Below, piece by piece: positions 49,811-64,000 of a stretch of 64,000 nucleotides of DNA (the stretch's first letter is position 1; each line of letters starts with the position of its first letter). The position numbers and the translations under genes are program-made. The notes beneath the pieces were generated by a model. The model was not told the origin of the DNA and did not search any database. It saw only the letters and a list, made by a program, of their open reading frames with translations. Origin of the DNA: Cladochytrium replicatum (lineage: Eukaryota; Chytridiomycota; Chytridiomycetes; Cladochytriales; Cladochytriaceae); assembly GCA_025526935.1 (NCBI GenBank), contig JAHLKD010000024.1, positions 434,001 through 498,000 on the forward strand, written 5' to 3'.

Positions 49811-50072
49811 CACCCCACGTTTGATGAGCATGTAGACAACAGGTACCTTCAACCACCACAGAGATAACTGCCACCTGCGCAGACAACAGAGACTTACCTC
49901 AATTTCCAAAATATATAAACCGTTTGTACACGGAAAATGCGCACCCCACGTTTGATGAGCATGTAGACGACAGGTACCGTCAACCACCACAGGGATATCT
50001 GCCACCTGCGCAGACAGCAGAGACTTACTTTAAATTCCAAAATATATATACCGGTTGTACACGGAAAATGCG
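49811..50072 (-). repeat. Tandem duplication, 2 x 131 bp, at the 3' flank of tRNA-Phe
   Basis: Unit 1 is 49811-49941 and unit 2 is 49942-50072; both begin CACCCCACGTTTGATGAGCA and end TACACGGAAAATGCG. They differ by about a dozen substitutions. The AAAA of ACGGAAAATG is, on the minus strand, the first TTTT after the tRNA and so probably its Pol III terminator. Confidence 0.9.
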
Positions 50073-50076
50073 TCTT

Positions 50077-50149
50077 GCGCCCTCCCGGGATTGAACCGGG
50101 GACCTTAAGATCTTCAGTCTTACGCTACTCCCAGCTGAGCTAAGGACGC
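50077..50149 (-). tRNA. tRNA-Phe (GAA)
   Basis: On the minus strand the 73-nt sequence starts GCGTCCTTAGCTCAGC. The acceptor stem GCGTCCT pairs with AGGGCGC (one G-U). The anticodon arm TAAGA-CTGAAGA-TCTTA has a perfect 5-bp stem and anticodon GAA. The T arm CCCGG-TTCAATC-CCGGG is perfect. The D arm is slightly odd: GCTC faces TAGC, leaving three pairs and one extra loop base. No intron and no encoded CCA, as expected for a nuclear tRNA. A minus-strand TTTT terminator lies just downstream. Confidence 0.93.
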
Positions 50150-50160
50150 CTATAATAACT

Positions 50161-50452
50161 CATAGTGGCTCAGTCGGTACGAATGCGACTTTTCAAAGCT
50201 AAACTCCGCGGTTCGAATCCTATAGGGGACTGGATTCGAATTTCCTACGAAATATATCTCTCGCAATATCGTGTCACGTGCAAGTACCGCGCCACACCTC
50301 CTTCGATTCGCCATTGCCTTCGCTCCTCTTTCCTACGGCTCGCACGGCTCCCCAAGTACTGAAGATTCCAAATCTTGGTTGAAGTACACGTGGGTGACAT
50401 GTACTGATTAAGCATTGTCAATACATGTTATAACATTCAAAAAAAAAAAAAA

Positions 50453-50453
<1 letters not shown>
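50161..50453 (+). mobile_element. tRNA-derived SINE with LINE-like 3' tail
   Basis: The head has an A-box-like TGGCTCAGTCGG (about 50166) and a perfect B-box GGTTCGAATCC (about 50211) at tRNA spacing, but cloverleaf pairing is poor, so it is a tRNA relic. The 3' part contains TTCCTACGGCTCGCACGGCT and CCCCA, also present in the 3' UTR of LINE A1 at about 55308-55333. The last part (GTGACATGTACTGATT ... ACATTC) is a diverged version of the LINE tail GTGATATGTATTGGTT ... AGTTC, and it ends in 15 A (50439-50453). A tRNA head plus a LINE-related tail plus poly(A) is the standard SINE plan. Confidence 0.65.

Positions 50454-50454
<1 letters not shown>

Positions 50455-50505
<51 letters not shown>
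50455..50505 (+). repeat. (CT)n microsatellite at 5' end of LINE A1
   Basis: About 25 CT units, uninterrupted, between a poly(A) and the first ATG of the element. A longer interrupted version occurs at the matching place in copy A2 (58493-58565). Confidence 0.97.
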
Positions 50506-50508
<3 letters not shown>

Positions 50509-50587
50509 AATCAATGCCGCCTCCCAGCGCTCCGCATGCGCAGCCGCCTGATGCGCCGCATGCCGCGCCGCCCGCCGCACCCCCGCT

Positions 50588-51910
50588 GTGCCCCCTGATG
50601 GACTTTCTGGTGGCACCGTGATTTTTGAGGCCCGTTCGCACCCCCGTGCCTCCTCTGTTGAAAATTCCGCTCCACAGCTTCCATTCTCTGCTCCTGCCTC
50701 TCCAATTCACTGGGCCGATGATGTGAATATGGGGGAGGATGAAAATGCCGAATCACGTGACTTCCGATCACGTGACCGACGCGCCAAAAGACCTGCTGAA
50801 CATGAATTGCCCCGTGGTCGCTCCCGTTCTCGTTCCCGATCACATCTGACGGGTGTCCGGGTTCTTGCTGCTGTGGCTGCTCCCTCGAGTGTTGCATCTC
50901 TGGCCGATCTCCGTGTCGTTCTCACTCAGATGCGATCTGTTTGTGCAACCTTTGATCCGTTGGCGATGCTGGATCCTATGCTTGCACATTTGCCGAGGGA
51001 CACTCCTGCTGAATTTTTTAGTGTTTGTCGTGATATGGCCGAGGATCTGGTGGGTCGCTTTGGGAGGCCGCTGCCTTCGCCTTCACCTCCGGTTGCCCCT
51101 GTCTCCCGCCATGATGATGTGGCTGCGCCTGTGTGCCTTCCCCCTAGACAACTGCATGGTAATCCTTCAATTCAGGACGATCTTGGGAACTCTGGTGCTC
51201 CTGGCCCTCGCCCCCCGTCTAGTCGACCTGCCCCACGTGGACCTCGTGGTCCACGCACTTATGCCGCTGCTGCTGCCAATGCCCGTGCCCGTGTGCTTGA
51301 GAGTCTCCCCACACTGAGTGCTGAATCTCGTACAGAAGCTGTCAGGACTGCCCTTGCTGGTCGTGACCCCACTTCGAATGTCAGCCTTCGTGGCCCTCGG
51401 CCTGTCGTATTCTATCCTCCGACCTCTCCGCTGCTGGTCTCCCCACCTGCTGATCTTCAGGCCCGTGTGGATGATTTGACCACTGTGTACATCAAGGACA
51501 TCATGAGACAGCGGCTCGGCTTTGTGCGGACCATGCTGAGGGCTCTCTTGGGCGATGAGGTGGTGCGTGGTATCTGCCACATCAGTTTCGTTGGTCGCAA
51601 CATTGCTTCCTTTATCTGTATTTGCTCAACCGCAATTGCTCTCCGTGCGCACTTCTCCACCCAGGAAGCTTCCACTGACGAATCAAACCCTGACTTTCTT
51701 CGCCGAGCCTCTACTCTGCCTTTGGAGCAGCGGGAGGCTGCGGTCAGGGAAGTTGTTCACAAGAGATATGCACATATCCTCAGTTCAGTTACTGATCCTG
51801 CTATTTTCCTGTATGTCCGTGGTCAGCTCCCCATGGATGCTCAGGAAACTGTGCTGGACAGTGCCCGCGGGATTGCGCGTCAGCCTCGCTCAACCCATCT
51901 TCGTCAATGA
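50588..51910 (+). CDS. LINE A1 ORF1 protein (nucleic-acid-binding type)
   Basis: An open frame of 440 codons ending in TGA at 51908-51910. In frame, the first ATG is at 50729 (MGEDENAESRD). In copy A2 the equivalent frame starts at an ATG 8 nt after the (CT)n tract (MPPPSTPHAAPPSAPPAVPP). In A1 one C is missing from the C-run before GCTGTGCCCC (about 50581-50584), which puts the same first ATG (50514) out of frame. The protein is Pro-rich, then Arg/Ser-rich (GRSRSRSRSHL), with a C-terminal folded part (RQRLGFVRTMLRALLGDEVV, ICHISFVGRNIASFICI) resembling ORF1 proteins of fungal LINEs. No CCHC knuckle was seen. Confidence 0.8.
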   Translation: MPPDGLSGGTVIFEARSHPRASSVENSAPQLPFSAPASPIHWADDVNMGEDENAESRDFRSRDRRAKRPAEHELPRGRSRSRSRSHLTGVRVLAAVAAPSSVASLADLRVVLTQMRSVCATFDPLAMLDPMLAHLPRDTPAEFFSVCRDMAEDLVGRFGRPLPSPSPPVAPVSRHDDVAAPVCLPPRQLHGNPSIQDDLGNSGAPGPRPPSSRPAPRGPRGPRTYAAAAANARARVLESLPTLSAESRTEAVRTALAGRDPTSNVSLRGPRPVVFYPPTSPLLVSPPADLQARVDDLTTVYIKDIMRQRLGFVRTMLRALLGDEVVRGICHISFVGRNIASFICICSTAIALRAHFSTQEASTDESNPDFLRRASTLPLEQREAAVREVVHKRYAHILSSVTDPAIFLYVRGQLPMDAQETVLDSARGIARQPRSTHLRQ

Positions 51911-54900
51911 TTAGTGTTCGAGTTGGTACCTTCAATTGTCGCAATTTGAGCTTTGGAGTTCTTGATTCACTGTTTCGTTTTATGCGCGCAAATCACATTG
52001 TTTTTCTGCTCCTGACTGAAACACACCTTTTTCCTTTAGACCCGCTGCCTTCTCCAGATTTGATTTTTGACACTCGTTTTTCTCCTGGGTCATCGGGCAC
52101 ACGACGGGCTGGTGTGGGAGTCTTGATCAATCGCAGTCTTTGTAGAGCTTCTGATTTCCGTCTCGTTTCTAGTTATGGTGGCACCTCTCTATGGTTTACA
52201 TTTCGTGGGCTTTTGGTTGGAGGGTATTATTTGCCTCCGTGTGGTATTGCTCAGGACCCCTTCCTTGAAGAGTTTATTGCTTCACTTCCTCAACATGTCC
52301 CGTCGTCTCCGTGCCCTGTTCTTTTGTTGGGCGATTTCAATGCCCGTTTTTTAGCTACTGGTGATCATTCTTCAAATCGTAGGGGTAGGTTGTTTGAGCA
52401 ATTTATTTCTGCCGCTAGTTTCTCTCTAGTTAAGCACCCTTCCTGTCATAACCCCACATTTTCTTCTCGCAATGGTGACTCCATTATCGATTTGTTGTTT
52501 GTCAATCCTCTGCTTCAATGTGATCCTATTTCTTACATAGTTCATAGTCGTCTAGCCGACGGCGAGTTTATGCCTTGGGCTTCTGACCATTTTCCGGTTA
52601 CAGCTGTTTTTTCTTTTGCTCCTCCCAATGCCAGCGCTCCCTCTGCTGCACCCCCCCACAAGCGCTGGGCTGCTCATCTGTTGCGTGAACCTGCTGTCTT
52701 TCAAGCAATGGAGGATGTGGGACATTTGTTTTTTGATCCCACCCTTGCTGATGTCAATGCTGCACTCAGTCCAATTTTAGAAGCTCCCGCCTTTGCCCAA
52801 ATGTCTGTGGATGTTGCACAGGGATGTATTGACTCTGCATTGGATATTATTTTGTCCTTTGTTACTTCATGTGCTGCTTGTGTCATTGGACCCCCCAGTT
52901 TAGTTCGCCGTCGCCCTGCCCTGCCATTGTTGCCGCCGCATTTAGTGGCCTTGCGACGGAGCTACTTACTTGCTCATAAGCACTATTTAGCTGTTTCTTC
53001 CTGTGATGATCCTGATCCTGGTTTAGTTGAGTATTGCCGCTTGGAGCGTGACCGGCTATCGCGTGAGCGTGTCAAAGCTTTTCGTACTTGGTCTCTTTCT
53101 CAGCGAGCTCGAGAGGCTTCTGGCGACAATATGTTTAGTTCTTCTCCTAGTTCTTTAACCGAGGTTAGCAAAGTTCTTTCCACCGCGCGTAGGTGTCATC
53201 AACGGCGCTCAGCTGCAAGTGGTTTATTGTCTGATCCTGCCTCTTTATCTCATTATCGCAATCACTTTGCCTCCGTTTATCAGACTCAGTTTGCACAATC
53301 CTCTGCCAGTGCAGAACACGTTCGTCTACATGCGCTGAATGATTCTGTGTCAGTTAGTGTTAGTGACTTTGTTTGTGCTATTCGTTCTTCCCCAAACAAC
53401 TCTGCTCCTGGCTCAAACCATATTCCAGCTGAGTTATTTAAGCCATTAGCTTCTGATGTTGCTATCCTTTTTGTTCAACTTTCAAACGCTATTTTCCGTT
53501 CAGGTTTGTCGCCCTCTGCCTGGAATGCTGGCTTGTTGTTACCTGTTTGGAAGAATAAGGGTTCCATTGGTGATATTAGTCAGTACCGCCCCATTACTTT
53601 AACCAATGTTGATAGAAAAATCTTTGAGCGTACCCTGCTTCCTATGCTTGTAGCTCATGTTGGTAAACTTGATCCCGCCCAAGCTGGTTTCCAGGCCAAT
53701 CGTTCAGGTGTTGAGTGTGTTTTTGCATTAGATGCTACCCTTCGACGGGCTTCCCGCACTGCTCTGCCTTATTGTGTTACTTTCTTAGATATTAAAGCAG
53801 CGTATGATACTGTGCATAGGCCTCTTTTGTGGGAACGTCTTCGTCAATTTCCCAGAATTCCAAACCGTTTGATCTCTGTTTTGATGAGTATGTTTGATCG
53901 TTGTTCTTCTCAGGTTGTTGTAGAGAATCGTTCTTCTGATTTGTTTTCGCTTCCACGAGGTCTTTTTCAAGGTTCTGTTTTGTCTCCGTTCTTGTACTCA
54001 GTTTTCATCAATCCTTTAGCACAGCTCCTTCGTCGTGAATCTTCTCATCTTGCTAGGTTTTCTTATAACACTCCTGTTTTCAATTCGTTGTTTTTTGCTG
54101 ATGACATAGCTTTGTTTTCTGCCACCCCTGAGCAGGCCCAACGTGCATTGAAAATTTGTGAAGATTTTGCTTTAGCTTCTCATTTTGTGTTTTCACCTTC
54201 AAAGTGTGCTGTGTTATCTTCTCAACGGTTACCCACCCCCTTGAAGCTTCATGGCTCTGCCCTCCCTGTAGAGGTTTCATTTAGATACCTTGGTCACTAT
54301 TTTACTATTGAAGGGTTTGATCTTGCTGCAACTATTGATCATCGCTTAGAGAAAGCTCGTGCCTCATTGTATCTTTTTGCACCTTATGTCTCGTACTTTG
54401 GTGGGTCTGCTCCTCGTGTTGCCAGGTTGTTGTTTTTGTCTTTTATTAGACCTTCACTTGAGTTTGGTTTAGCACTTATTCGGCCATCCACTGCTCAGCT
54501 TCAGGTACTCGAGCGTTTTTGTTATCATGCACTGTGTCGTCTGTTTTCGATAGCCCATACCACTTCGCGTGTTGGTTTGTTGCTGTTAGCGCAAATTCCT
54601 ACTTTTGAGTTCAGGCTGAAGTACCTTCAGGCACGTATGTTTGCTCGCTGGTCTAGTGATTCCAGCCCTCTGTTACCAGCTGCTGTGTTGCAATTCTATC
54701 GGTCATCTCCAGTCGGTTATGGTTCATCTCCTTATTTTTCCGCTTGTCACAATGATCTCATTGTTCCTATGCCTGTTGTGCCCCCACTTCATCCGTTGAT
54801 GTTGCATTTTCAGTCTTTAGCTGTTGCACATAATGGACCAATTGCAGTTTCGTTTGCCCCTGTCCGCAATTTGAAACTTCGCCACCCTTTGTTGCTACCC

Positions 54901-55287
54901 CCACACCAACATCTCCCAACAGTATGTCTTCGTTTGTTCCTGCTATATCGGCTTGGCCGCCTGTTTCCAAACCCCCGACCTTATTGTAGGAACTGTCATG
55001 ATGCCCCTGAAGTGTCGCGTGCCCATGTCTCTGTGTGTCTACATTTGCGTGCTAGTTTGTCTGCTAGTTTTGATCTAGGCCCACCTGATGATCCCCGCCT
55101 ACCTCTTGACATTGCAATTGATATGCTTTCACCACGGCCTTTTTATCCTTCCCCTGCTTTTTCCCAGTGGGTTCTTGTTCTTCGTGCACTTAACCGCATT
55201 TGGTCAAACTGTCTTGGTTATGAGTTAGTTTTGTCTCCAGCTCCTGATTGTATCTTGTCTGCTTTTGTTGATTTGGATATGCCTTAG
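51907..55287 (+). CDS. LINE A1 ORF2: APE endonuclease-reverse transcriptase
   Basis: 1126 codons, starting at an ATG that overlaps the ORF1 stop (ATGA), which suggests termination-reinitiation coupling. The N-terminus is an exonuclease-endonuclease-phosphatase domain with VGTFNCRNLSFG, LLTETHLFPLD, LLLGDFNARFLATGD, SIIDLLFVNP and SDHFPVTAVF (catalytic N, E, D/N, D, H all present). The reverse transcriptase core (about residues 520-790) has SQYRPITLTNVDRKIFE, AGFQANRSGVECVF, FLDIKAAYDTV, GLFQGSVLSPFLYSVF and the catalytic FFADDIALFSAT. Near the C-terminus YCRNCHDAPEVSRAHVSVC is a CCHC zinc knuckle as in LINE ORF2 proteins. The frame is uninterrupted, so enzymatic function looks possible. Confidence 0.95.
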   Translation: MISVRVGTFNCRNLSFGVLDSLFRFMRANHIVFLLLTETHLFPLDPLPSPDLIFDTRFSPGSSGTRRAGVGVLINRSLCRASDFRLVSSYGGTSLWFTFRGLLVGGYYLPPCGIAQDPFLEEFIASLPQHVPSSPCPVLLLGDFNARFLATGDHSSNRRGRLFEQFISAASFSLVKHPSCHNPTFSSRNGDSIIDLLFVNPLLQCDPISYIVHSRLADGEFMPWASDHFPVTAVFSFAPPNASAPSAAPPHKRWAAHLLREPAVFQAMEDVGHLFFDPTLADVNAALSPILEAPAFAQMSVDVAQGCIDSALDIILSFVTSCAACVIGPPSLVRRRPALPLLPPHLVALRRSYLLAHKHYLAVSSCDDPDPGLVEYCRLERDRLSRERVKAFRTWSLSQRAREASGDNMFSSSPSSLTEVSKVLSTARRCHQRRSAASGLLSDPASLSHYRNHFASVYQTQFAQSSASAEHVRLHALNDSVSVSVSDFVCAIRSSPNNSAPGSNHIPAELFKPLASDVAILFVQLSNAIFRSGLSPSAWNAGLLLPVWKNKGSIGDISQYRPITLTNVDRKIFERTLLPMLVAHVGKLDPAQAGFQANRSGVECVFALDATLRRASRTALPYCVTFLDIKAAYDTVHRPLLWERLRQFPRIPNRLISVLMSMFDRCSSQVVVENRSSDLFSLPRGLFQGSVLSPFLYSVFINPLAQLLRRESSHLARFSYNTPVFNSLFFADDIALFSATPEQAQRALKICEDFALASHFVFSPSKCAVLSSQRLPTPLKLHGSALPVEVSFRYLGHYFTIEGFDLAATIDHRLEKARASLYLFAPYVSYFGGSAPRVARLLFLSFIRPSLEFGLALIRPSTAQLQVLERFCYHALCRLFSIAHTTSRVGLLLLAQIPTFEFRLKYLQARMFARWSSDSSPLLPAAVLQFYRSSPVGYGSSPYFSACHNDLIVPMPVVPPLHPLMLHFQSLAVAHNGPIAVSFAPVRNLKLRHPLLLPPHQHLPTVCLRLFLLYRLGRLFPNPRPYCRNCHDAPEVSRAHVSVCLHLRASLSASFDLGPPDDPRLPLDIAIDMLSPRPFYPSPAFSQWVLVLRALNRIWSNCLGYELVLSPAPDCILSAFVDLDMP

Positions 55288-55448
55288 TGTTTTGAAACAT
55301 TTTACTTTTCCTACGGCTCGCACGGCTCCCCATGTGCTGCCAATTTACGTGTATTTTTACACTTGTATTTGGATTTTGCACCAGCGGGTGATATGTATTG
55401 GTTGGACAATAAATGCATATTATGAAGTTCAAAAAAAAAAAAAAAAAA
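55288..55448 (+). other. LINE A 3' UTR and poly(A)
   Basis: From the ORF2 stop to 18 A. Contains CCTACGGCTCGCACGGCTCC shared with the SINE, and TGATATGTATTGGTTGGACA followed by an AATAAA poly(A) signal near 55409, shared with the detached tail at 58389-58492. Confidence 0.85.
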
Positions 55449-55576
55449 TGTCCGACTTGCGCGCTTCCCTATGTGCTGGTCCACGACCATCTTGTAAGGC
55501 ACTTTACTTTGGGTGTTGTTTATTGTTATGCATTGTATGTGCAAATAAATAAATAATATTGTTCAAAAAAAAAAAA
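55449..55576 (+). mobile_element. Detached 3' tail of LINE family B with poly(A)
   Basis: Contains CTATGTGCTGGTCCACGACC and ATCTTGTAAGGCAC, nearly identical to 58090-58130 at the end of LINE B, then GTTATGCATTG, AATAAA and 12 A (55565-55576). It is a short 5'-truncated copy lying between A1 and B. Confidence 0.85.
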
Positions 55577-58186
55577 CTTGGAATCTCCGATTGTTTAACA
55601 ATCAAGTTATTCCATTGGAACTCACTTCAGGTCCCTGTGGGGACTTCTCTTTCTCGTGCAGTGGCCCAGGGAGCAATTGATTCCGCATTTCAAATTATAG
55701 TTGATTTTGTTGAGGCAGCAGCAGTTCTGACATTGGGACCCCCAACACCTCGTCGTAGAGCACCAGCGACCACTCCTTTGCCCCCTGAGATTGCTTTGTT
55801 GCGTAGTAAGGCTCGTTCAGCATTCCGTGACTATTATTCCCTCTTTCACCACAATTCTTCTGACCCTCTTCTTCCTTTTCTAAGAACTCGCCAACGTGAT
55901 AGTCACAAAGCATTCAAATCAGCTCTGAGATCACACAGGAGTAAGACAAAAGCAAAATTTTTTGATGACCCTAGTTCTTCATCAGTGCCTTCTCTTCTGA
56001 AACATGTGTCTCATGCTCGGCGCTGTGCTAACTTTCGTACTTCAGCTAATGGTTTAGACTTTGATCCTCAGTCTTTAGCCAAATATTCTGATCATTTTGC
56101 TAGTGTCTACAATGCTCAAGCTGCTGACCCAGTTTCACCTTCAATTGTTCTGTGTGATTTTCAGCTGCCATTGGATGTTGAAGCTTTTGTTCTAGCTATT
56201 AGGGACTGCCCTTTGGAGTCTGCCCTGGGTCATGATCGTCTCCCTGCAGAACTATATCGCCCAATACTAATTATCGCCCCATTACTCTTTCGTGTGTTGC
56301 CCGAAAAATTTTTGAGCGAGATTTGTTGCCACATCTTTATTCTGCTATCACGTCTCAACGCCCACTTGATGCTGCCCAAGCGGGATTTCAGTCACACCGC
56401 TCGGGAATGGAATGTGTTTTTGGTCTTCAGGCATGTATCTCCCGTGCGTCTAATGCCAAGGTTCCTTGGGTTGCTGGTTTTTTAGATATTCAAGCAGCTT
56501 ATGACACCACAAATCGTGCAATTCTTTGGGCTGAGCTTCTTTCTAGGGGAGTACCGTTGCCATTTGTTTTTGTTTTGAAGTCTCTGTTTGATTTTTGTTC
56601 TTCCAGAGTGGTTGTTGCAAATTGTTTTTCAGATGCTTTTGATTTGTTTAGAGGTTTGTTTCAAGGTTCTGTTCTCAGTCCACTTCTCTATATCACTTTT
56701 CTTGATCCTCTACCTGGGCTCCTCCGACCATTTGCCCCACCTATAACACTCTTTCATCCTGCCAAACCACGATATAATTCTTTTTTATTTGCAGATGATT
56801 TGGCCTTGTTTGCACTTACTTTGGATGCTATGCAGGTTCTTCTCTCTGTTTGTGACCAGTTTGCCCAAGCTCGTGGTTTTTCTTTTGCTTCTTTGAAGTC
56901 TGTGATTCTCACAAAAATTCCTATTCCTGCTCATTCGCCTTTGCTTCTTCATGGTCAAACTCTGCCTGTCAAGCCTTCATTTCGTTATCTGGGTTGCTTT
57001 TTTGGAGATACTGGATTTGATGTTTCACTGACTATTTCCCATCGACTTGCCAAAGCGCGCGCAGCTTCTTTTCCTTTGCTTTGTTTTTCAAGGATGTTTG
57101 GTTCTCATTCTCTGGTTGTGGTTCGTCATTTGTTTTTGTCTTTTATTCAACCTACGCTTGAATTTGGTTTATATTTTACTCTTCCCTCTGTTGCTGGTTG
57201 CAAACCAGTTCGGACTTTTATTCACCAATGTTTGTGTCGATTTCTTCGCCTTTCATTTTCCACTTCAATTGCTGGGGTTTTACTGTTTTTTAAGTTTCCT
57301 GACCTTCAGTTTCGGCTTCAATATCTGCAGTTTCAGATGTTTCAAAGTTGGCTGGATGATGATGCCCCTGATATGGTTCACTCTATGTTATCATTCTTTC
57401 TTCACCAGGGAAAGCACTTTCGTTGTTCTCCTGTCCCTTTCAACAATCACTTCCTCTTCCCGGCTGCAAATGTTGTAGTTCCCAAACCTTCTGATGTTAT
57501 GGCAAATCACTTTCACCAAGTAGCCTCATCTGCCTATGGTTCTATAGCTGCTAGCTTTGCTCCCCTTGCATCTGCACACCCTCATGCGCTAGCAATTGCT
57601 CCTCCATGCTTCCCTATTTCGTCAATCTTGAGGCTTCTGCAGTATTGTGTTGGAAGTTTGTTTTATCACCCCCGCAAGCAGTGTTGTCGCTGCTGCACTG
57701 CAACTCTCTCTAGATCTCATGTTTTAGAATGTTTGCGTCTTGACCTATTGTTGCCTCCAGTTCCTGTTCCTGTTTTACAACTTCCGCTTGAAGTTGCAAT
57801 TGATAGCCTTCGTCCACTTTGCATTGTCAACCCAGCGAATCTTGCACCGTTGTATCTAGTTTTTCGTTGTCTCCATAAGATTTGGCTTCACTGTATGGGT
57901 CTGCCATTAGAAGTTTCTCCTCCAGACTCCCTCTTTGGCCCTGCATTTGTGGATCTTTAACTTTTTCTTTTTTCATTAATTATTACTCACCTGTTTTTTT
58001 GGCACCTTAGCAGTATCTGACAGGTAGCCACAGGTTTGAGTTTACATTCTCTGTTTTGCTTTGTTGCTTTTCCTTATGCTGCGCGCTCCCCTATGTGCTG
58101 GTCCATGACCATCTTGTAAGGCACCTTTGGGTGTTGTTTTTTGTTATGCATTGTGTGCAAAATTAACAATAATATTGTTAAAAAAT
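55577..58186 (+). mobile_element. LINE B, 5'-truncated and internally deleted
   Basis: Starts inside ORF2, after the endonuclease, and ends with its own 3' UTR and a short A-run near 58180. The linker region (RAVAQGAIDSAFQIIVDFVE) and RT are homologous to LINE A ORF2 but clearly diverged, so it is a sister family. Confidence 0.85.
55590..57960 (+). pseudogene. LINE B ORF2 fragment (reverse transcriptase)
   Basis: The frame reads from about 55600 to AELYRP near 56260. A deletion of roughly 45 codons relative to LINE A (the segment between the AEL-KP and QYRPITL motifs) then changes frame, and coding resumes as NYRPITLSCVARKIFER, AGFQSHRSGMECVF, FLDIQAAYDTTN, GLFQGSVLSPLLYI and FLFADDLALFAL to the stop at 57958. 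The zinc knuckle RCCTATLSRSHVLEC is present near the end. The catalytic FADD is kept, but truncation and deletion make the copy dead. Confidence 0.85.
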
Positions 58187-58300
58187 CATCATTCACTTAA
58201 CCGATGCAGTTTTGTCTCCTACTCCTGATTCAATCTCCACGTGCTGGTGGAAGTCGCAAGTGAAGAAAGAAATTTAATTCCCTCAATATTGCACTACAAT

Positions 58301-58382
58301 CGTCGGCGCTAGGACTTGAACCTAGGCGGGGAAACCCCATGTGATTTCTAGTCACACTCCTTAACCACTCGGACACACCGAC
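58301..58382 (-). tRNA. tRNA-Ser (AGA)
   Basis: On the minus strand, starts GTCGGTGTGTCCGAGTGGTT, a class II tRNA of 82 nt. The acceptor GTCGGTG pairs with CGCCGAC (one G-U) with G as discriminator base. The anticodon loop ACTAGAAAT gives AGA. The long variable arm is ATGGGGTTTCCCCGC, and the T arm is TAGG-TTCAAGT-CCTA. All are as expected for serine. Intronless. The detached LINE A tail begins right at its 5' end. Confidence 0.95.
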
Positions 58383-58492
58383 TTAATTTTGCCGTTTTAC
58401 GTGTATTTTTTCAATTGTATTTGGATATTGCACCAGCAGGTGATATGTATTGGTTGGACAATAAATACATATTATGAAGTTCCAAAAAAAAA
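58383..58492 (+). mobile_element. Detached 3' tail of LINE A with poly(A)
   Basis: TTTTACGTGTATTTTTTCAA, TGATATGTATTGGTTGGACA, AATAAATACATATTATGAAG and 9 A. Matches the 3' UTR of A1 (55345-55430) closely. It is 5'-truncated at the tRNA-Ser 5' end and followed at once by the (CT)n start of copy A2. Confidence 0.9.
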
Positions 58493-58519
58493 CTCTCTCT
58501 CTCTCTCTTCTCTGTCTCT

Positions 58520-58563
<44 letters not shown>

Positions 58564-59019
58564 TCAAAAATCAATGCCGCCTCCCAGCACTCCGCATGCC
58601 GCGCCGCCCTCCGCACCCCCCGCTGTGCCCCCTGATGGACTTTCTGGTGGCACCGTGATTTTTGAGGTCCGTTCGCGCCCCCGTGCCTCCTCTGTTGAAA
58701 ATTCCGCTCCACAGCATCCATTCTCCGCTCCTGCCTCTCCAATTCGCTGGGCTGATGAATGTGAATATGGGGGAGGATGAAAATGCCGAATCACGTGACT
58801 TCCGATCACGTGACCCTGGCGCCAAAAGACCTGCTGAACATGAAATTGCCCCGTGGTCGCTCCCGTTCTCGTTCGCGATCACATCTGCCCGGTGTCCGGG
58901 TTCTTGCTGCTGTGGCTGCTCCCTCGACTGTTGCATCTCTGGCTGATCTCTGTGTCGTTCTCACTCAGATGCAATCTGTTTGTGCCACCTTTGATCCGTT
59001 GGCGATGGTGGATCCTATG

Positions 59020-59496
59020 TGTTAAAAACCAAGGGCTTCTCCGGCAGCGGTAGGGCGTGTTTAGCTGTACTGTAGCTAGCACAACAGCTCCAGGTTCCGT
59101 CTCTTGGCCCAGTACCTGTTCTCCCAGGTGTGTATATGCCTAATACTCCGACAGGCTGTACACTACACCCAAGCTGGTCAGGCAACCAGGGAATGCTGTG
59201 GTCAAAGACATTGGTCACATCAACTCCTAAATTCAAGTGAACAGTGCGTGTGGGCATACGTTGTGGTCAAAGACATTGGTCACATCAACTCAAAGGACCA
59301 AGCCACACCACATTCCCCACTAAATGCCAAGATCACTCCACACAGGACCTGCCAAACATGGATATAAATACATGAAATACAAGTCCATAAATAAGAATGA
59401 AGAGGGATTGACAAAAAATCTGTCAGGTCAAAGAGAAAAAAGACAACCCAAAGGATAACCCATATAGCAAACAGTCTGATATGCTAGTTTTTAGCA
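59020..59496. mobile_element. Solo LTR, 477 bp, inside LINE A2
   Basis: Begins TGTTAAAAACC and ends TTTTTAGCA, with a 5-bp target duplication CTATG at 59015-59019 and 59497-59501. LINE A1 has the uninterrupted site (GGATCCTATGCTTGC), so the borders are exact. Contains a directly repeated GTGGTCAAAGACATTGGTCA unit at 59198 and 59263 (65-bp period) and a TATAAATA box near 59360, as expected for an LTR promoter. The internal retrotransposon is not present. Confidence 0.9.
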
Positions 59497-59734
59497 CTAT
59501 GCTTGCACATTTGCCGAGGGACACTCCTGCTGAATTTTTAGTGTTTGTCGTGATATGGCCGAGGATCTGGTGGGTCGCTTTGGGAGGCCGCTGCCTTCGC
59601 CTTCACCTCTGGTTGCCCCTGTCTCCCGCCCTGATGATGTGGCTGTGCCTGTGTGCCTTCCCCCTAGACAACTGCATGGTAATCCTCCAATTCGGGACGA
59701 TCTTGGGAACTCTGGTGCCCCTGGCCCTTGCCCC

Positions 59735-59795
59735 CCGTCTAGTCGACCTGCCCCCCGTCTAGTCGACCTGCCCCCCGTCTAGTCGACCTGCCCCA
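59735..59795 (+). repeat. 20-bp triplication in LINE A2 ORF1
   Basis: CTAGTCGACCTGCCCCCCGT-type unit present three times; A1 has it once (about 51217-51240). Probably replication slippage in a GC-rich run. Confidence 0.9.
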
Positions 59796-60970
59796 CGTGG
59801 ACCTCGTGGTCCACGCACTTATGCTGCTGCTGCTGCCAATGCCCATACCCGTGTGCTTGAGAGTCTCCCCACACTGAGTGCTGAATCTGGTACACTTGCT
59901 GGTCATGACCCACTTTGAATGTCAGCCTTCGTGGTCCTCGGCCTGTCGTATTCTATCCACCGACCTCTCCGCTGCTGGTCTCCCCACCTGCTGATCTTCA
60001 GGCTCGTGTGGATGATTTGACCACTGTGTACATCAAGGACATCATGAGACAGCGGCTTGGCTTTGTGCGGACCATGCTGAGGGCTCTTTTGGGCGATGAG
60101 GTGGTGCGTGGTATCTGCCACATCAGTTTTGTTGGTCGCAACATTGCTTCCTTTATCTGCATACGCTCAACCGCAATTGCTCTCCGTGCGCACTTCTCCA
60201 CCCAGGAAGCTTCCACTGACAAATCAAACCCTGACTTTCTTTGCCGAGCCTCTACTCTGCCTTTGGAGCAGCGGGAGGCTGCAGTCAGGGAAGTTGTCCA
60301 CAAGAGATATGCACATATCCTCAGTTCAGTTACTGATCCTGCTATTTTCCTGTCAGCTCCCTATGGACGCTCAGGAAACTGTGCTGGACAGTGCCCGGGG
60401 GATTGCGTGTCAGCCTCGCTCAACCCATCTTCGTCAATGATTAGTGTTCGAGTTGGTACCTTCAATTGTCGAAATTTGAGCTTTGGAGTTCTTGATTGTT
60501 TCGTTTTATGCACACAAATCACATTATTTTTCTGCTCCTGACTGAAACACACCATTTTCCTTTAGACCCGCTGCCTTCCCCAGATTTGATTTTTGACACT
60601 TGTTTTTCTCCTGGGTTATCGGGTACACGAAGGGTGGGTGTGGGAGTCATGATCAATCGCAGTCTTTGTAGAGCTTCTCATTTCCGTCTCGTTTCTAGTT
60701 CTGGTGGCCCCTCTCTATGGTTTACATTTCGTGGGCTTTTGGTTGGAGGGTATTATTTGACTCTGTGTGGTATTGCTCAGGACCCCTTCCTTGCCGAGTT
60801 TATTGCTTCACTTCCTCAACATGTCCCGTCGTCTCCGTGCCCTGTTCTTTTGTTGGGCGATTTCAATGCCCGTTTTTTAGCCACTGGTGATCATTCTTCA
60901 AATCGTAGGGGTACGTTGTTTGAGCAATTTATTTCTGCCGCTAGTTTCTCTCTAGTTAAGCACCCTTCCT

Positions 60971-61651
60971 TGTTGATGCATGCACATATATGGAACTAGC
61001 TACTCCAGTCTTCATCCACTACCGACACTGAGGGGAAATACCCTTACCAGAGACGTCTGGGACAAGTTCATGCGTAATCATACATTACATGAAAGAACTG
61101 GCATTTCTATATATTGGTCATGAAGACATCCTCCTTTACTCATTAGAATCTAGTAGAGTTCTGCGAGTGATCACGCGTTTGAGAAAGAATGTGATGCTAA
61201 TCAGTTTGCTGCTGACAGTTATATCATACTCGAGTACATCTCGTATGATATTAATGCAAGGTACTACATACTTATTTCTCATAGAGAACATGTCATTGTA
61301 GACAAGATTATAGCTAATCTTCATGTTCTGCTCACAATGGTTATTGTGAACGATCACTGGGATCTATATCTCTCTATTCGAGAGAATAATGTTTATATTA
61401 GATATTTCCATATATATATAGCCACAGGTTAATTATAAAAGCCGAAATGACAGTATATTTGAATTGTTTGCACAATTCAAAGAGCCTGTGGCGATATGAG
61501 ATTTCAGGTGGCTGTGGCGCAAGAGCGTGATTGGAGAAACACGAAACTCTGCACCTACACAGATCAACCTGAGGACTATCTCTAGCGCAAGTCCCAGATC
61601 AGCAGCACTAAAACTGATCAAATCACATCGCCCTCAAACCAAACTTCGACA
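60971..61651. mobile_element. Solo LTR, 681 bp, inside LINE A2 (second family)
   Basis: Begins TGTTGATGCATGC and ends AAACTTCGACA, with the 5-bp target duplication TTCCT at 60966-60970 and 61652-61656. The empty site in A1 reads CACCCTTCCTGTCATAAC. TGTTG...CGACA ends are typical of Ty1/copia LTRs (family knowledge). Its sequence is unrelated to the 477-bp LTR nearby. Confidence 0.9.
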
Positions 61652-63375
61652 TTCCTGTCATAACCCCACATTTTCTTCTCGCAATGGTGACTCCACTATC
61701 GATTTGTTGTTTGTCAACCCTCTGCTTCAATGTGGTCCTATTTCTTACATAGTTCATAGTCGTCTAGCCAACAGCGAGTTTATGCCTTGGGCTTCTAACC
61801 ATTTTCCGGGTTACAGCTGTTTTTTCTTTTGCTCCTCCCAATGCCGGCGCTCCCTCTGCTGCTCCCCCCACAAGCGCTGGGCTGCTCATCTGTTGCGTGA
61901 ACCTGCTGTCTTTCAAGCAATAGAAGATGTGGGACATTTGTTTTTTGATCCCACCCTTGCTGATGTCAATGCTGCGCTCAGTCCAATTTTAGAAGCTCCC
62001 GCCCTTGCCCAAATGTCTGTGGATGTTGCACAGGGATGAATTGACTCTGCATTGGATATTATTTTGTCCTTTGTTACTTCGAGTGCTGCTTGTGTCACTG
62101 GACCCCCCAGTTTAGTTCGCCGTCGCATTGTTGCCGCCGCATTTAGTGGCCTTGCGACGGAGCTACTTACTTGCTCATAAGCACTTTTTAGCTGTTTCTT
62201 CCTGTGATGATCCTGATCCTGTTTTAGTTGAGTATTGCCGCTTGGAGCGTGACCGGCTATCGCGTGAGCGTGTCAAAGCTTTTCGTACTTGGTCACTTTC
62301 TCAGCGAGCTCCAGAGGCTTCTGTCGACAATATGTTTAGTTCTTCTCCTAGTTCTTTAACCGAGGTTAGCAAAGTTCTTTCCACCGCGCGTAGGTGTCAT
62401 CAACGGCGCTTAGCTGCAAGTGGTTTATTGTCTGATCCTGCCTCTTTATCTCATTATCGCAATCACTTTGCCTCCGTTTATCAGACTCAGTTTGCACAAT
62501 CCTCTGCCAGTGCAGAACACGTTCGTCTACATGCGCTGAATGATTCTGTGTCAGTTAGTGTCAGTGACTTTGTTTGTGCTATTCGTTCTTCCCCAAACAA
62601 CACTGCTCCTGGCCCAAACCATATTCCAGCTGAGTTATTTAAGCCGTTAGCTTCTGATGTTGCTATTCTTTTTGTTCAACTTTCAAAAGCTATTTTCCGC
62701 TCAGGTTTGTCACCCTCTGCCTGGAATGCTGGCTTGTTGTTACCTGTTTGGAAGAATAAGGGTTCCATTGGTGATATTAGTCAGTACCGCCCGATTTCTT
62801 TAACCAATGTTGATAGAAAAATCTTTGAGCGTACCCTGCTTCCTATGCTTGTAGGTAAACTTGATCCCGCCCAAGCTGGTTTCCAGGCCAATCGTTCAGG
62901 TGTTGAGTGTGTTTTTGCATTAGATGCTACCCTTCGACGGGCTTCCCGCACTGCTCTGCCTTATTGTGTTACTTTCTTAGATATTAAAGCAGCGTAAGAT
63001 ACTGTGCATAGGCCTCTTTTGTGGGAACGTCTTCGTCAATTTCCCAGAATTCCAAACCGTTTGATCTCTGTTTTGATGAGTATGTTTGATCGTTGTTCTT
63101 CTCAGGTTGTTGTAGAGAATCGTTCTTCTGATTTGTTTTCGCTTCCACGAGGTCTTTTTCAAGGTTCTGTTTTGTCTCCGTTCTTGTACTCAGTTTTCAT
63201 CAATCATTTAGCACAGCTCCTTCGTTGTGAATCCTCTCATCTTGCTAGGTTTTCTTATAACACTCCTGTTTTCAATTCATTGTTTTTTTGCTGATGACAT
63301 AGCTTTGTTTTCTGCCACCCCTGAGCAAGCCCAACGTGCAAGGAAAATTTGTGAAGATTTTGCTTTAGCTTGGGA

Positions 63376-63464
63376 ACAACATGGTTCGAGACTCCCGTGG
63401 ATATTCCGAATGATAAAATCTAAGATCATTACGTAATGCCCTAAAAGTATGACGTAGATTGTGT
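63376..63464. other. About 80-90 bp foreign segment in LINE A2
   Basis: Replaces a short piece of A1 (CTCATTT between TTTAGCTT and TGTGTTTT) with sequence including GGTTCGAGACTCCC, reminiscent of a B-box, and CATTACGTAATG, a palindrome. No target duplication is clear. Origin unknown. Confidence 0.6.
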
Positions 63465-64000
63465 TTTCACCTTCATGGTGTGCTGTGTTATCTTCTCAGC
63501 GGTTGCCCACCCCCTTGAAGCTTCATGGCTCTGCCCTCCCTGTCGAGGTTTCATTTAGATACCTTGGTCACTATTTTACTATTGCAGGGTTTGATCTTGC
63601 TGCAACTATTGATCATCGCTTAGAGAAAGCTCGTGCCTCATTGCATCTTTTTGCACCTTATGTCTCGTACTTTGGTGGGTTTTGGTACTCCTGTTGCCAG
63701 GTTGTTGTTTTTGTCTTTTATTAGACCTTCACTTGAGTTTGGTTTATCACTTATTCGGCCTTCCATGCTCAGCTTCAGCTACTCGAGCGTTTTTGTTATC
63801 ATGCACTGCGTCGTCTGTTTTCGCTAGCCCATACCACTTCGCGTGTTGGTTTGTTGCTGTTTGCGCAAATTCCTACTTTTGAGTTCAGGCTGAAGTACCT
63901 TCAGGCATGTATGTTTGCTCGCTGGTCTAGTGATTCCAGCCCTCTGTTACCAGCTGCTGTGTTGCAATTCTATCAGTCATCTCCAGTCGGTTATGGTTCA

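Follow-up and report, generated by a model that had tools for sequence, protein, structure and literature searches.

Two LINEs together with a SINE and an ORF1-only element stack divergently just upstream of tRNA genes in a probable fungal genome

LINEs upstream of many kinds of tRNA gene have been described in dictyostelid amoebae (PMC5911963, PMC5006619). In the parts of these papers available to us, TRE5 of Dictyostelium is presented as a LINE with an APE endonuclease, a reverse transcriptase (RT) and an oligo(A) tail that inserts upstream of tRNA genes in the opposite orientation, at a distance of 40-54 bp, and that also uses extrachromosomal 5S genes (PMC5911963), while NLTR-A of Dictyostelium purpureum, which encodes an RNase H after its RT, is placed in front of the mature tRNA at a distance of 2-6 bp (PMC5006619). 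According to the available text of the latter source, Ty3 of yeast and DGLT-A of Dictyostelium sit about 12-15 bp in front of the mature tRNA (PMC5006619). These two are LTR retrotransposons with an integrase and not LINEs. Another non-LTR element, NeSL-1_TV, has Trichomonas as its host. As far as the accessible portion of the source goes, it is tRNA-gene-specific, as are LIN15_SM and LIN25_SM of planarians; each uses one tRNA species (tRNA-Pro for NeSL-1_TV), and the clades concerned are RLE-type and sequence-specific (PMC4640811). In the literature that we covered, which is incomplete and was in part available only as excerpts, we found no fungus for which an APE-type LINE is described in front of tRNA genes.

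The stretch of DNA analysed here, referred to as the window, comprises 64,000 nucleotides (contig C24, 434001-498000) of a genome assembly of 50.5 Mb in 198 contigs. The preliminary description of this window had taken its host for a fungus, and the 24 matches to Fungal_trans in the genome are in keeping with this; together with seven matches to the ciliary protein IFT46, they suggest that the host is a zoosporic fungus. According to ARAGORN, the window contains two tRNA genes, each on the minus strand and each with a plus-strand element upstream, an arrangement already recorded in the preliminary description and on which ARAGORN and the matches to our library of four elements agree. The first, tRNA-Phe(gaa), occupies 50076..50149 (Rfam RF00005, 56.1 bits) and is separated by a 9 bp leader remnant (50150..50158) from a SINE with a tRNA-like head and an A-tail (50159..50453, plus strand; library match, with A- and B-box-like motifs recognised by eye). 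The second, tRNA-Ser(aga), occupies 58301..58382 (Rfam, 54.7 bits), and the alignment of a 5'-truncated LINE A tail of about 100 bp with an A-run (58390..58492, plus strand; repeat family D18, library match) begins about 7 bp from it. The closeness of both elements to their tRNA genes had thus been correctly seen at the outset; the spacings given then, 12 bp for Phe and 1 bp for Ser, are replaced by 9 bp and about 7 bp, and the piece at tRNA-Phe, which had been described without distinction as LINE/SINE, is a SINE bearing a LINE A tail. Window positions 1-50000 gave no match to any of the four library elements, in keeping with the earlier statement that the first 50 kb is free of them. Directly past the 3' end of tRNA-Phe, a 131 bp unit is present in two tandem copies (49811-50072, 92% identity).

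Behind the SINE, all on the plus strand, follow a full-length LINE A (50454..55449) with a (CT)n head, two ORFs and an A-tail; a 5'-truncated LINE B-type tail with an A-run (55451..55576), 96% identical to the tail of the element at locus L025; and a 5'-truncated LINE B that retains the RT and the 3' end (55580..58190; Pfam, protein comparison and library match). Beyond tRNA-Ser, a second LINE A copy with a (CT)n head (58493..64000, plus strand; read from sequence and library match) lies head-to-tail directly behind the truncated LINE A tail, is broken up by inserts and extends beyond the window end. One of the inserts, at 59020-59499, is a MITE-like sequence of about 480 bp with terminal inverted repeats (by eye), the end sequence of which recurs upstream of a 5S gene (L073) and in a LINE stack (L206).

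LINE A ORF1 is a frame of 440 aa from GTG (50588..51910, plus strand) for which the Pfam scan gave no match. ORF2 (51907..55287, plus strand; 1126 aa) carries an APE-type endonuclease (Exo_endo_phos) and an RT (RVT_1); no RNase H was found in it by Pfam at E <= 0.001, and its top PDB matches are LINE-1 ORF2p. With APE and RT in a single ORF, an A-tail and 5' truncations, LINE A is an APE-type LINE. Genome-wide, it is represented by 272 tails and 186 heads, of which 100 were listed. LINE B is 42% identical to LINE A across 545 aa. The SINE and LINE A have 33 bp near the SINE 3' end in common (94%); the SINE has at least 45 genome matches, and a pattern search allowing up to three mismatches found 110 full heads, of which 100 were listed, a count that covers full heads and excludes truncated SINEs. 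The window SINE gave no Rfam tRNA match at E <= 1, and relaxed ARAGORN called one SINE head (L212) tRNA-like in structure. The fourth element, of 1.28 kb, is entire in L025 (1579-2568 noted) and present with its first 1.2 kb in L196; a 330-aa frame, open in both, is 25% identical to LINE A ORF1 over 136 aa (E 3e-6 for a single comparison), and the element bears a LINE B-like tail. LINE B is known here from its 3' half, and this ORF1-only element may therefore be an internally deleted LINE B. All four elements follow the same rule of placement upstream of tRNA genes, the ORF1-only element being the first one upstream within 100 bp at 5 of the 61 tRNAs sampled below (L041, L054, L086, L090, L101). 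SINE/LINE pairs with common tails and ORF1-only elements of the HAL1 type are known kinds, and the SINE with its LINE A tail and the ORF1-only element with its LINE B tail resemble them; the difference is that here both passengers also use the tRNA-gene landing site.

An Rfam tRNA search of the genome, in which 63 of 2278 candidates were scored, returned at least 62 matches. Omitting one at a contig end that had no upstream sequence (C116), we obtained a sample of 61 tRNAs chosen by tRNA score alone, and searched 1.4 kb upstream of 31 of them and 301 bp upstream of 30. An element starts within 20 bp upstream in 41 of the 61 and within 100 bp in 50, and all 50 of these elements are divergent, pointing off the tRNA. 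At five further tRNAs the element lies 146-251 bp upstream; a tRNA-Thr (ARAGORN) intervenes at L039, sequence resembling tRNA stretches from other loci intervenes at L080, L100 and L102, and the fifth tRNA is that of L047. The remaining six flanks had no library match (L042, L076, L078, L097, L099, L105), though for all except L042 the flank sequence recurs in other loci fetched; an Rfam search on 20 flanks gave no match. Downstream of 30 tRNAs, 1.4 kb of flank yielded a match in four, the nearest at 164 bp with 77% identity. The preliminary description had, on two cases, conceded that chance might be at work; the genome sample is far above chance, as, of the 100 SINE heads listed, 8 are divergent and within 15 bp upstream of one of the 62 listed tRNAs, compared with 0.0009 expected. 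The preliminary description had proposed to judge the matter by whether copies peak sharply in the 20 bp or so ahead of tRNA genes; in the samples of the genome analysed they do, and the suggestion of a LINE that integrates beside Pol III genes as TRE elements do is supported. Within the listed sets, 11/11 SINE heads and 9/9 LINE A heads found within 500 bp of a listed tRNA are upstream and divergent, as are 18/20 SINE heads, 19/22 LINE A heads and 19/24 LINE A tails within 10 kb. At L008 a SINE lies downstream of a tRNA-Gly 5' end, divergent, and its A-tail directly meets an apparent tRNA-Val.

The same pattern was read from the side of the elements. We examined the 5' sides of 46 SINE heads (L110-L155), leaving out most of those already known at listed tRNAs or in fetched loci: 19 adjoin a tRNA or tRNA-like gene, 25 another element's tail and two LINE A. 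Among the 19, a reverse-strand tRNA is called by ARAGORN at 6-23 bp in 17, and the other two are tRNA-like, L115 by relaxed ARAGORN and L122 by eye. Judged by eye, the 25 come after a LINE A or LINE B A-tail and are separated from it by 0 to about 15 bases. At L153 the SINE head is opposite a LINE A head, and at L135, beyond 14 bases resembling a tRNA start, it is opposite a piece of LINE A in antisense. Forty of the 186 LINE A heads were read likewise (L156-L195): 12 are at a tRNA (10 by ARAGORN, L164 by relaxed ARAGORN, L172 by eye), 24 are behind another element's tail (by eye), and four are other or undecided (L160, L161 with antisense LINE A, L171 and L178). In the ARAGORN set the head-to-tRNA distance is 8-62 bp, measured to a scripted mark that sometimes falls inside the (CT)n. 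Of the 24, L182 lacks an A-tail, and the inserts at L159 and L174 are longer and contain tRNA starts. The head on C55 (L178/L200) is in apparently unique sequence, about 0.8 kb past old LINE tails. L193, also one of the 24, has at its tRNA an insertion of barely more than A-runs with CCTTGC on either side.

Many loci are stacks, a feature absent from the preliminary description. On C7 and C44 some LINE A tails are spaced about 5,017 bp apart in series, and a walk along the C7 array leads through a 407 bp LINE A piece and a LINE B piece of 1.8 kb to a tRNA-Ile at 10 bp. Such series fit repeated insertion at one spot, in which older copies would have been displaced outward. No consistent target-site duplication was found among the A-tail junctions listed, and extra bases, up to 15 or more of them, are present at some junctions. 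At L159, a tRNA start of 15 bases that follows the LINE B tail was considered as a target-site duplication and rejected, as the other end is a different tRNA (Tyr). Stretches of 14-15 bases resembling tRNA starts and ending near the A box are stranded within the stacks at L159, L174 and L135. In a tRNA-Lys stack (L071, 1501-1589, the same locus as L050), a U6 snRNA fragment below the Rfam cut-off is flanked by the A-tail of a LINE B on one side and a piece of LINE A on the other. U6-LINE chimeras are known elsewhere, and this arrangement is alike.

LINE A also precedes SINE heads, again a finding beyond the preliminary description. At three places, C18 (counted together with its reverse copy at C24), C127 (distance by eye) and C36, LINE A stands head-to-head with a SINE, the tRNA-like start of which is 9 bp away. 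Had LINE A targeted the SINE promoter, the tRNA gene beside which the SINE had landed would be expected at the far end of the LINE A, and at C36 the A-tail indeed lies 7 bp from a tRNA-Ala (ARAGORN default). In the far stretches fetched at C18 and C127 no trusted tRNA was found; the stacks continue with LINE B or unmatched sequence, at C127 with a second LINE A in the same direction after a LINE B tail. Relaxed ARAGORN calls of tRNA-Ser in these stretches look spurious and were set aside. Other Pol III genes were free of elements in the 235-1500 bp read upstream, namely the two U6 genes over the Rfam cut-off and the best four of eight 5S matches; at one 5S locus (L072), LINE B and LINE A sequence starts about 0.5 kb downstream. 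Searches for SRP RNA and RNase P gave no match, either here or in control genomes. With the small numbers of U6 and 5S genes available, this points to a target preference for A/B-box promoters.

From the position, orientation, high occupancy, stacking and common tails, all of which are directly observed, we propose, with a probability of roughly 0.85, that LINE A and LINE B, both APE-endonuclease non-LTR retrotransposons, insert at a fixed spot upstream of tRNA genes under the guidance of the Pol III complex, and that the passengers share their machinery. The landing site, in most cases 5-15 bp ahead of the 5' end of the mature tRNA, would correspond roughly to the Pol III start. Target-primed reverse transcription would begin from a nick on the tRNA sense strand and would leave the element with its 5' end toward the tRNA and its A-tail outward. 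Newer insertions would enter between the tRNA and earlier copies, which would build head-to-tail stacks, and the LINE machinery would mobilise the SINE through its LINE A tail and the ORF1-only element through its LINE B tail. The most likely cue is the TFIIIC/TFIIIB complex at type 2 promoters, those with A and B boxes, probably through protein contact, because LINE A also precedes the tRNA-like heads of SINEs and no element was found upstream of the U6 and 5S genes read.

It might instead be that the endonuclease reads a DNA motif, or the boundary between an A-tail and (CT)n, and not the Pol III complex. Stacks do often join an A-tail to (CT)n or to a SINE head with few bases between, but leader sequences vary (by eye) and yet the distance to the tRNA is maintained, and we think this explanation unlikely. 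Nor would a tRNA and its element copied as one unit, with few actual insertions, readily account for the diversity of the loci. In the loci fetched, an element lies within 25 bp of 64 of 79 tRNAs called by ARAGORN, a set that takes in element-fetched loci and a few genes fetched twice, and all are divergent. The element-adjacent tRNAs represent 27 anticodons with differing truncation points; insertion was therefore repeated. Some pairs are duplicates (L079/L082, L095/L096, L107/L108), but the 64 element-adjacent calls have 60 distinct upstream stretches (up to 60 bases compared), and the nine tRNA-Lys(ctt) genes at L057-L065 carry different elements with different truncation points. This diversity of junctions contradicts copying of whole units, which we regard as highly improbable.

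A further possibility is that the elements insert widely and that, in a gene-dense genome, only the copies beside tRNA genes escape selection. The promoters of tRNA genes are internal, and inserts upstream of them may be tolerated. However, selection could scarcely confine the elements to a few bp and a single orientation (50/50), place LINE A 9 bp before SINE heads or leave the downstream flanks of tRNA genes nearly empty, and we consider such survivorship very unlikely. Insertion directed by the Pol III complex is the reading that we retain.

In behaviour, this system is nearest to TRE5, the ORF1 protein of which binds TFIIIB, and to NLTR-A, a likeness that concerns placement; the comparisons that follow extend as far as the accessible parts of the sources. 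It shares with TRE5 (TRE5-A) an APE-type LINE, an A-tail and a divergent position upstream of tRNA genes, but the distance is usually 5-15 bp here, with 41/61 within 20 bp, against 40-54 bp there; the four 5S genes read here are clean upstream, whereas 5S genes are used by TRE5 (PMC5911963); and the elements here include a SINE and one with ORF1 only. The preliminary description had seen in the much closer range a departure from TRE elements, which holds against TRE5 but does not amount to a new kind, given the 2-6 bp of NLTR-A (PMC5006619). NLTR-A is likewise a non-LTR element at close range, mostly 5-15 bp here versus 2-6 bp there, but has an RNase H, for which Pfam found no match in LINE A. 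The landing place of Ty3 and DGLT-A, which are not LINEs, is nearly identical. NeSL-1_TV, LIN15_SM and LIN25_SM share tRNA-gene specificity outside the dictyostelids, but here an APE-type LINE lies upstream of many tRNA kinds.

Whether the SINE is a portable landing pad, with a tRNA-like promoter that recruits the LINE-guiding complex, so that the two LINEs, together with the SINE and the ORF1-only element, make up a self-extending community on most tRNA genes, is in our estimation an evenly balanced question. If it is true, each SINE insertion beside a tRNA gene would be a fresh target. The fungal case is distinguished by its high occupancy, by its SINE and ORF1-only passengers and by LINEs before SINE heads. 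It would provide many natural replicates for asking what steers the endonuclease of a LINE to Pol III complexes, as well as, within one genome, a contrast of promoters between tRNA genes and the SINE on one side and U6 and 5S genes on the other.
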